A stretch of DNA of 64,000 nucleotides from a bacterium (GTDB lineage Bacteria; Actinomycetota; Acidimicrobiia; Spongiisociales; Spongiisociaceae). The DNA lies in contig JAPOQZ010000266.1 in NCBI GenBank assembly GCA_026710435.1, positions 1 through 64,000 of the forward strand, in the 5' to 3' direction. The first letter of the stretch is position 1. Each line of letters begins with the position of its first letter. The position numbers and the translations under genes are program-made. A model generated the notes under the pieces. The model ran no database searches. It saw nothing but the letters and a program-made list of their open reading frames with translations, and was not told where the DNA came from. Positions 52,051 through 55,744 of this stretch are shown in pieces.

Positions 52051-52193
52051 CCAGCGCGGGGCGGGACTACCTGCCTGTGGAGGCGCTGGCGACCGGGTAG
52101 CATGAGGTGCCGCGGAGGCGGTTTCCGACTGTCGCCGGCCCGGAGAGTCCGTCCTTCGCATCTTGGTCAGAATGGACATCCCGGGGAGTACCG

Positions 52194-53120
52194 ATGATCT
52201 CACCTATATCGGTTGCCACGATCGGGGTCAGCGACCTCGAGAGATCGGCCAGGTTCTACCGACACCTGCTGGATTGGGAGTTGGTGGCGGCAGGGGACGT
52301 GGACGGGCCCGATCTCGAGGCCCTATGGCGAATGCCCGCCGGCCTGCGTGGTCGGGCGGTGGTGATAGGTGCTCCCGGCACCGCCCTGGGTCGCGTCCGG
52401 CTCATCGAATGGGCGAAGCCGGGAGAGATGGTGCGCGATCCCGCCCGGAACCAGGACTTCGGGCACTACGCCCTCAACTTTCGGGTTGGCGATCTGGAGT
52501 CGGTCTGGGAACGCCTCGAGGAGATCGGGGGCAGCGCCAGGTCGAGGCCCAACACATGGGTGGTGGCTGAAGGTATCCTCGCCCATGACTCGCTGTGCTA
52601 CGACCCCGACCGCATTACATGTGACGTGTTCGAGCTTCCCGACGAGGGCCCACTCGGTCCTCTGGGCGATCGCCCGTCCAGCGAACTCCAGACGATGGCG
52701 ATCCGTCCGAGCGACATTGCTGCTTCAGTGGCGTTCTACCAGGGCTTGGGATATGAGGTTTGGTACGACCACAAGACCGACGGGATAGAGGGATTCCTCC
52801 ATCTCCCGGAGGGCACCACGCTCCACAATGTGAACTTCCACATGCCGCGGCAGAGCCGTAACGGGCGCGTCGAGCTGGCCGCTTACCTCGGGTTTCCCGG
52901 AGTGCCGACTTCGCATCTGGCGGTGCCTCCCAATATCGGCATCATGTCGATCACGTTCGAGAGCGATGACTTCGACCACGACGTGAGCCTCTTGGAGAAG
53001 GTGGGAGGCTTCCCGGTTGCTACTTCTGACGGGGTGGAGATCGTACCTTATGGGCCAACCAGGGTCGCCACGTACTTGGGACCCGACGGCGAGGCCATCG
53101 AATTGGTGGAGGTCGGATGA
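52194..53120 (+). CDS. Two-domain VOC family protein
   Basis: ISVATIGVSDLERSARFYRHLLDWELVAAGDVDG...FGHYALNFRVGDLESVWERLEEIGG...ELQTMAIRPSDIAASVAFYQGLGYEVWYDHK. Confidence 0.85.
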   Translation: MISPISVATIGVSDLERSARFYRHLLDWELVAAGDVDGPDLEALWRMPAGLRGRAVVIGAPGTALGRVRLIEWAKPGEMVRDPARNQDFGHYALNFRVGDLESVWERLEEIGGSARSRPNTWVVAEGILAHDSLCYDPDRITCDVFELPDEGPLGPLGDRPSSELQTMAIRPSDIAASVAFYQGLGYEVWYDHKTDGIEGFLHLPEGTTLHNVNFHMPRQSRNGRVELAAYLGFPGVPTSHLAVPPNIGIMSITFESDDFDHDVSLLEKVGGFPVATSDGVEIVPYGPTRVATYLGPDGEAIELVEVG

Positions 53121-53695
53121 ACATACGTGGGATTCCATTCGAGGAGATGGACTCCTCGATGCGCCGCAGGGCTGAGGCGGCCGCAGAACTCAGCGGCGAC
53201 ATGCGGTTCATCCGGGCAATAGCAGCAGCTCCCCACATGGTCGACTTCTACTTCGGCGGCTTCTACGAAGATGTGTTCTTCGGTGGCGAGGTTCCGATCA
53301 TCACCAAGGAATTGGTCCGGCTGAGGCTCTCGAACCTGCACGGGTGTGCCTTCTGAAACCGCACCAATCCCGTCTCGGCGAGACGGAACGGAGTAAGCGA
53401 GGAACAGATCGAAGCAGTGGCTGGAGACATCCGATCTGGTCCCTTCACCGAGGCCGAGAAGGCGGCTCTGGCTCTAGCCACGGTCCTGTCCAACGCGGTT
53501 CAGGATGGGTTGGTGGATGAACAGCTGGCGGCCGAGTTGCACCGCCACTACACGGACGGCCAGATCATGGAACTGGCGATGGTGATCGCCATACTCACCG
53601 GCATGGCCCGCATGCTGTTTGCCTTCGACCTCGCGGATCGAGAGCAGGCTTGTCCGGTCGGTGGTTTGTCCGGGGGTCAGAGCAACGACAACTGA
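53117..53695 (+). CDS. Candidate selenoprotein: carboxymuconolactone decarboxylase/AhpD-like with in-frame UGA (CxxU)
   Basis: Continuous frame across TGA 53354-53356: ...KELVRLRLSNLHGCAF(U)NRTNPVSARRNGVSEEQIEAVAGDIRSGPFTEAEKAALALATVLSNAVQDGLVDEQLAAELHRHYTDGQIMELAMVIAILTGMARMLFAFDL... A hairpin follows the UGA. Confidence 0.75.
53370..53386 (+). promoter_or_regulatory. Candidate bacterial SECIS hairpin
   Basis: CCGTCTC-GGC-GAGACGG: perfect 7-bp stem, loop starting with G, loop beginning 20 nt after the UGA. Confidence 0.6.
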
Positions 53696-54723
53696 CTCGA
53701 TGTTTCATCCACGCACCGGAGGGGAGAGTATCCGGGCGTGAGGGCGTGAGAGGTGTCGAGGTAGACCTTGGCCTCGGGCGCGCCGCTGAACCGGCCGTGA
53801 CTCCACCGCACCTCTACGTGCCCGTCCACACGCCGTGGTGTCCCAGAAGTCCTGTCCATGAGTTCGGCCCACCACCTGACTACGGGCTGTCCGGCGCTCG
53901 TATCGGGTTCTGCCTCGAATGCCCGGAACCCGTAACGCTGCCGGAAGTCCCATGGCGTACCGACCCGGAAGCGCACCGGCTGTCCGGCCGACGCCGTGCC
54001 CAGGATGAAGTAGGGCGCGGCTTGGAGGCGGAGCAGGCGCCACAGCATCTCCTCGCGCGCTAAACGGTCGGTGCCGAGAGCCCTCTGCCACCGGGTGGCA
54101 GACGCGCTAGAGACAGCCGCGCAGAACCGCCGGTAGGGACCGGCAATGTCAGGCGGCCACGTGCGTTCGAAGCGTCCCTTCAACCTGAGGCGGTCGGTAC
54201 TGGTGAGCCGATCGAGAGTTGACGGAAGATCGCCGCTGCCGAAGTGCTTCCGGCATGCGCGGTACAGCTCCTGGTATTCGGTTGGGGCCGCCTCAAGGTA
54301 CCAATCGGTCCCGTCCCCTCGGCGGTTGGCCAGCAGGCGGTCGAACAGGTGAGCGGGAGAGACGTTGTAGAGCACATTCGATCTGTATTTGCAGCTTATG
54401 AGGAAGACGTAGTCGACGCGGAGATCAACGGGGATCTGCTCGTAGCCAGGGGGATTCTGGTTTCCTTTCCATTCAACCCTTTCCGGCACCCGATCCTTCA
54501 ATCCGTCCGCTGACGACGCGAAGGCCCGACCGTTTTCCCAAGCGTCCTCGAACAGCTGGTGCTGTTCCCCAGCAGCCCGCGCATCCTTCAATTGGTTGAA
54601 GTGCCGTCCGGCGACGTTGAGCATCTCTCTCGGGCGCGCATCCAGGGCTTCGTCCAGGCACTCGATTCCAAGCATGGCCAGACCTGTAACGATCTCCGAT
54701 ATCTCGGTGCGGAGGCTGGCCAC
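53677..54723 (-). CDS. Probable type II restriction endonuclease
   Basis: Adjacent to a DNA methyltransferase on the same strand. VDLRVDYVFLISCKYRSNVLYN resembles a PD-(D/E)XK variant with SCK in the catalytic strand. Confidence 0.6.
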   Translation of the reverse strand: MASLRTEISEIVTGLAMLGIECLDEALDARPREMLNVAGRHFNQLKDARAAGEQHQLFEDAWENGRAFASSADGLKDRVPERVEWKGNQNPPGYEQIPVDLRVDYVFLISCKYRSNVLYNVSPAHLFDRLLANRRGDGTDWYLEAAPTEYQELYRACRKHFGSGDLPSTLDRLTSTDRLRLKGRFERTWPPDIAGPYRRFCAAVSSASATRWQRALGTDRLAREEMLWRLLRLQAAPYFILGTASAGQPVRFRVGTPWDFRQRYGFRAFEAEPDTSAGQPVVRWWAELMDRTSGTPRRVDGHVEVRWSHGRFSGAPEAKVYLDTSHALTPGYSPLRCVDETSSQLSLL

Positions 54724-54802: not shown

Positions 54803-55744
54803 TCAACCCTCACCAGTACCCGCCTGAGCTATCCGTGTCCTCGCCAGCTCCACGTAGGTCGGGTCGATGTCATAGCCCACCGCGCGGCGGTTGGCTTCGA
54901 CCGCCGCCACCAGGGTGGTACCGGAACCCATGAACGGGTCCAGCACCAGATCCTGTTCGTACGTGTACAACTGGATCAGGCGGGCTGGCAACTCCACCGG
55001 GAAAGGTGCCGGATGCCCGATCCTGCTCGCATGGGCGGGAGGAATCTCCCAGACATCCAGGGTCGCTTCCATGAACTCGTCCCGGCCGATCGTTGCCTTG
55101 TGGGGGAGTCCGTCCTCCCGGCGCCGGGCGGGAGACAGAGCACGATTGAACCGGCCCTTGCCGGCGATAACGACCCGTTCGGTGACGTCCCGCAAGACGG
55201 GGTTGGTCGGGCTGCGCCACGACCCCCAAGCGCAGGATCCGCTGGAGGCCTTGGCCTTGCGCCAGATGACCTCTCCGCGCAGCAGAAGACCCAGGTCGTC
55301 CTGGAGGATGCGGATCACATCGGCGCTGAGGCTGCGGTATGGCTTACGTCCCAGGTTGGCGACGTTGACCGCGATCCGTCCACCTGGCTCGAGAACCCGC
55401 AGGCACTCTCCGAAGACATCGCGAAGAAGGGTCAGATAGTCGACGTAGGATTCGGGAACCTGCCGGCCCGCCACTGCCTGCTCGTAGTCCTTCCCGACGA
55501 AGTACGGCGGTGAGGTCACGACCAGAGCGACGCTGTTGTCAGGGAGTTGCTCCATCTTCCGGCTATCGCCATGGATGGGCTGGGGCTGGTCGAACCCGTC
55601 GGCCGGCTTGACACGATCGTCGGTAGACAGCTCTGGTGGAGCGAACCGGGCGTAGAAGGCGGAGGCATCGTGACCCTCGCGCCGGCCCGCTCCGAAGCTC
55701 GATGTGGCTGTGCTCCTCCGAGAATCCTGTGTGTGGTGCGCCAC
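54803..55744 (-). CDS. DNA methyltransferase (m4C/m6A, beta-type motif order)
   Basis: VVTSPPYFVGKDYEQ (motif IV) precedes DLVLDPFMGSGTTLVAAVEANRRAVGYDID (motif I). Confidence 0.92.
   Translation of the reverse strand: MAHHTQDSRRSTATSSFGAGRREGHDASAFYARFAPPELSTDDRVKPADGFDQPQPIHGDSRKMEQLPDNSVALVVTSPPYFVGKDYEQAVAGRQVPESYVDYLTLLRDVFGECLRVLEPGGRIAVNVANLGRKPYRSLSADVIRILQDDLGLLLRGEVIWRKAKASSGSCAWGSWRSPTNPVLRDVTERVVIAGKGRFNRALSPARRREDGLPHKATIGRDEFMEATLDVWEIPPAHASRIGHPAPFPVELPARLIQLYTYEQDLVLDPFMGSGTTLVAAVEANRRAVGYDIDPTYVELARTRIAQAGTGEG

Follow-up and report, generated by a model that had tools for sequence, protein, structure and literature searches.

Selenoproteins of CMD and AhpD-like type with a CxxU motif were reported in 2005 and 2008 in the Sargasso Sea and GOS surveys (PMC1088965, PMC2398784), and a 2026 catalogue also holds CMD-like selenoproteins, MBW1767730.1 being a CMD-like example (PMC13188914). 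In AhpD itself, the proton relay consists of Glu, Cys, His (Tyr in PA0269), Cys and His (PMC3141380). Within the bacterial DNA analysed here (the window, i.e. the whole stretch of 64,000 nucleotides), we identified a gene which is almost certainly an intact member of this type, with an in-frame UGA that would be read as Sec by way of a hairpin downstream (Table 1). The initial annotation had put forward the Sec reading of the UGA from the letters of the window, and it now gains support from the Sec machinery of the genome, the conservation of the UGA, the Cys homologues and the covarying hairpin.

Reading frame and neighbouring genes

The two open reading frames described initially form one continuous frame with a single TGA as the sole break, as confirmed on the sequence, and the residues around the UGA read NLHGCAF-U-NR. 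In the read-through protein, the match to the Pfam CMD family (PF02627) spans the TGA with 53.7 bits (cut-off 23). The NCBIfam models matched were all far under their cut-offs, the best being NF053654 (YciW-related (seleno)protein) with 49.8 vs 310 bits.

Table 1. Positions of the predicted selenoprotein gene, its elements and the upstream gene in the window.
Feature	Position	Strand	Remarks
VOC/glyoxalase-family gene	52107..53120	+	stop overlaps the start of the predicted selenoprotein gene (ATGA, 53117-53120); real start possibly downstream of 52107
Predicted CMD/AhpD-like selenoprotein gene	53117..53695	+	192 residues, predicted Sec at position 80, single internal TGA
Cys77 codon, first residue of CxxU	53345..53347	+	invariant in the 16-homologue alignment
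UGA codon, predicted Sec80	53354..53356	+	UGA of the relative, Cys in 13 orthologues, Sec machinery of the genome
Predicted SECIS hairpin	53370..53386	+	arms 53370-53376 and 53380-53386; loop GGC 53377-53379; covariation

Since the stop of the VOC gene lies inside the start codon of the selenoprotein gene, the two are probably co-translated, and they probably share one transcript; the overlap is present in locus L072 too. Genes near the selenoprotein gene encode VOC, luciferase-like, Lrp/AsnC, metallo-beta-lactamase-fold and ABC-transporter proteins, which suggests a gene set for small-molecule oxidation or detoxification. On the opposite strand, an ORF of 348 residues (53677-54723, -) has no Pfam match, is conserved in L072 and adjoins a gene for a DNA N6/N4 methylase (54803-55744, -); together they could make up a restriction-modification pair, with the ORF as the endonuclease.

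Hairpin downstream of the UGA codon

The stem noted initially, CCGTCTC-GGC-GAGACGG with 7 bp and 20 nt between the UGA and the loop, was confirmed at its position. Its core energy is -9.4 kcal/mol and, in agreement with the original claim that it fits the bacterial SECIS rule, the hairpin falls within the bSECIS limits, i.e. a loop of 3-9 nt, G in the first two loop positions, a spacing of 16-37 nt and an energy <= -7.5 (PMC13188914). Folding of the single sequence gave no significant stability, the z-scores being only 0.3 to -1.2, and was set aside for the covariation analysis; an Rfam search of the hairpin region gave no match. We rejected the hairpin rule as sole evidence, as it is unspecific in this GC-rich DNA: about 60 TGAs in the window that are flanked in both directions by at least 40 open codons possess a rule-meeting hairpin of at least 6 bp, and a hairpin of at least 7 bp is found at 1.5% of all TGAs.

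That the hairpin stands above chance follows from the comparison with relatives and from a synonymous-codon test at fixed geometry. Among 16 distinct Sec-CMD sequences, the stem occupies identical columns, and its 3-nt loop (GGC or GGG) begins 20 nt past the UGA; 112/112 pair cells are standard, and in five of the seven pairs both partners have changed (31 cells). Covariation scored 0.717 vs 0.333 in shuffles, none of the 500 being as high, a comparison that overstates the significance because related sequences are not independent. Shifting the partner by 1-3 columns lowers pairing to 28-55%, and the stem sequence differs among at least four groups (CCGTCTC, TCYGCTTC, TCTGTTTC, CCGTCCA) with pairing kept in each. 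The same columns rarely pair in 15 Cys homologues (one stem pair in only 1/15), and a further Sec sequence, L069, has another hairpin geometry (18 nt, 5-nt loop). Random synonymous recoding yielded 7 bp at the fixed geometry in 0.2-0.9% of the trials per sequence (P ~0.004). The comparative evidence for regarding the hairpin as a bacterial SECIS element is strong.

Conservation of the UGA codon, homologues and Sec machinery

An independent genome of the same genus (G001; gene in the public record JAPPFW010000024.1, isolate RHO1_bin_3) encodes a protein 82% identical to the predicted selenoprotein, with the UGA at the identical codon and likewise a VOC neighbour; apart from this TGA, no disabling change was found in the relative's gene. 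Contamination is estimated at 6-8% for the two genomes of the genus, which are both draft assemblies. By codon position, the two genes differ at 11, 8 and 35 sites before the TGA and at 13, 6 and 42 after it, and the NG86 dN/dS ratio is ~0.10 (0.128/1.226) before and ~0.14 (0.096/0.692) after. With dN much lower than dS before as well as after the TGA, the C-terminal half is conserved, as the initial annotation had held, and this protein-level selection on the downstream half argues strongly against a pseudogene. Furthermore, synonymous sites over the hairpin are nearly frozen (P 0.008 with the place fixed beforehand, 0.33 if any place counts). A Cys codon of a Cys-type CMD gene could have become TGA by one base change, through mutation or through a sequencing error in draft assemblies, leaving a 79-residue fragment as the only product; with the TGA shared at 82% protein identity, purifying selection past it, hairpin sites that hardly vary and covariation of the hairpin across the family, such a pseudogene or error is very improbable.

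The UGA had been said to replace the second redox Cys, and in the alignment of homologues Cys falls at exactly that column: it is present in 13 orthologues from Actinomycetota and Pseudomonadota (39-46% identity), nine of which have HGCAFCN around it. Distant CMD homologues of the same order read CNYU, CDYU, CHYU or CGYU at the UGA column and others CEYC or CGYC; as judged from these sequences, Sec and Cys interchange at the second redox site among CMD homologues. The tree has at least three Sec/Cys changes and long branches, and does not settle whether the ancestral state was Sec or Cys. In the collections searched here, Sec among close orthologues is limited to the genus itself, and further Sec orthologues may exist, since the search used few patterns per protein. 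No orthologue beyond that of the genome itself was found among 398 genomes of the phylum searched at E 1e-15, and the Sec motif, searched as degenerate DNA, had no exact match in viral contigs. Gene context is not conserved among the orthologues compared; those of the HGCxTC branch adjoin thiolase and Rieske ring-hydroxylase genes.

In five related genomes (G019, G032, G057, G058 and G020), a Sec-CMD gene with CNYU lies immediately ahead of another CMD gene, whose motif DPYF is devoid of both redox residues (loci L052, L051, L053, L045 and L022). The two form a conserved pair of an active and an inactive protein, judging by their motifs, and perhaps a heteromer. An Acidobacteria gp1 sequence (L087 6070-6129, QIAP01000033.1) contains a CMD gene with CDYU and a hairpin of the same type 20 nt past the UGA; in related acidobacterial copies (L086, L089, L090), Cys and Sec are both missing from the UGA column.

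The genome that harbours the window (4.9 Mb, 270 contigs, 95% complete, estimated contamination 7.6%) was found to contain the full set of selA, selB, selD and tRNA-Sec(UCA), the presence of which had been named initially as a check of the Sec reading. The genes selA (427 bits) and selB (345 bits), both over cut-off, are adjacent on contig C124, selD (375 bits) is on contig C88 and the tRNA-Sec (73.7 bits, anticodon TCA (UCA)) on contig C237. Contamination is an unlikely source of this machinery, because the GC contents of its stretches agree (64-66%) and the same-genus genome has selB as well. As selB is present in 50/59 relatives, its co-occurrence with Sec-CMD genes is uninformative. Decoding of the UGA as another residue, through a changed genetic code or non-specific read-through, would likewise account for a frame that stays open past the TGA, but with selA, selB, selD and tRNA-Sec at hand and Cys at the UGA site in the homologues it is barely conceivable. 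A changed genetic code was ruled out: TGA is a stop elsewhere, since it terminates both the selenoprotein gene and the preceding VOC gene.

The selD gene of the genome also has an in-frame UGA (L065 1531-1533, contig C88), situated in GGG-U-ACK and followed by a strong stem-loop. This position is the known Sec/Cys site of SelD, so that UGA seems to stand for Sec in a second gene of the genome as well, and selD is probably itself a selenoprotein gene.

Active site, predicted chemistry and known relatives

The structure model (mean pLDDT 81) has an AhpD-like fold; its fold matches are 2PRR, 3C1L and 6K40, and the sequence matches PA0269, Atu0492 and Bmp8. Relay members present are Glu65 (12 residues before the first Cys), Cys77 and the predicted Sec80; those replaced are His/Tyr by Phe79 and the last His by Asn84. 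A His four residues past the second redox residue is absent from the predicted selenoprotein and from the Cys orthologues, which have Asn or Asp there, and His75, two residues before Cys77, is conserved in orthologues. The original designation CMD/AhpD-like stands for family, fold and motif, by the Pfam and fold matches, but does not extend to the relay His of AhpD proper, for which reason the AhpD assignment is limited to fold and motif. A third Cys near the C-terminus, Cys179 (window 53651-53653), is present in 15/15 homologues that reach there and may serve as an additional resolving Cys or act between subunits.

From comparative genomics, the hairpin 20 nt downstream would recruit SelB with Sec-tRNA(UCA), the UGA would be read as Sec, and the CxxU would sit in the AhpD two-helix active-site motif of the product. 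If the AhpD mechanism applies, the Sec selenolate would most likely attack a peroxide or a similar oxidised substrate; Cys77 would then resolve Sec80, giving a selenenylsulfide that is re-reduced by a thiol system of the cell. Probably co-translated with the VOC-family enzyme, the selenoprotein may act within the small-molecule oxidation/detoxification set. Thiol/selenol peroxidase-type redox chemistry appears most likely but is a tentative assignment, because the last relay His is Asn84.

AhpD serves AhpC as a disulfide reductase or adaptor. Sec could also be inserted into a protein that is no peroxidase. Such a protein might work as AhpD does for AhpC, might protect against HOCl-type oxidants in the way of RclX, or might be a dehalogenase comparable to Bmp8. 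This would suit the exchange of the last relay His for Asn84, with the conserved His two residues before Cys77 instead, and the occurrence of Bmp8 (6OHI/6OHJ) among the sequence and fold matches, as well as the HOCl sensitivity of mutants in RclX, an AhpD-like protein of P. aeruginosa needed for HOCl and HOSCN resistance (PMC7950407). The best matches, however, are AhpD-like proteins, including PA0269, a weak H2O2 reducer (PMC3141380), and we regard a non-peroxidase role as a serious but tentative possibility. Peroxidase-type chemistry in a selenoprotein of known type is the reading we prefer. A reading that goes further seems improbable: the protein would stand for a CMD selenoprotein subfamily missing from the catalogue, its active site rearranged (no His past the redox pair, a conserved His two residues ahead of Cys77) and its selenol carrying out a reaction other than peroxide reduction, e.g. 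reductive dehalogenation by analogy with the CMD-fold debrominase Bmp8.

Standard gene calling, the default ORF list used here included, cuts this selenoenzyme gene in two at the UGA. As a clean natural set, the Sec and Cys homologues of the family, together with a hairpin whose geometry is constant (20 nt from the UGA, loop GGC or GGG), help to find such selenoprotein genes in draft genomes and serve the question why one genus has Sec where the orthologues found have Cys.

The best solved relative by sequence is PA0269 of Pseudomonas aeruginosa (2IJC, 2O4D, 7XW1), in which the Glu and the CxxC/CxxU align; it differs by Cys in place of Sec and by Tyr50 and His55 where the selenoprotein has Phe79 and Asn84. 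The debrominase Bmp8 (6OHI, 6OHJ) shares the fold over ~170 residues (TM 0.71) and a sequence match, but is only 21-22% identical. With the catalogued CMD/AhpD-like selenoproteins (PF02627, COG2128), the predicted protein has in common the Pfam family, the CxxU, the SECIS-like hairpin past the UGA and widespread Cys homologues; it differs in scoring far under the NCBIfam cut-offs and in the Cys of the close orthologues recovered in this analysis. The kind, CMD/AhpD-like CxxU selenoproteins, is already known, and the gene described here adds one member to it.
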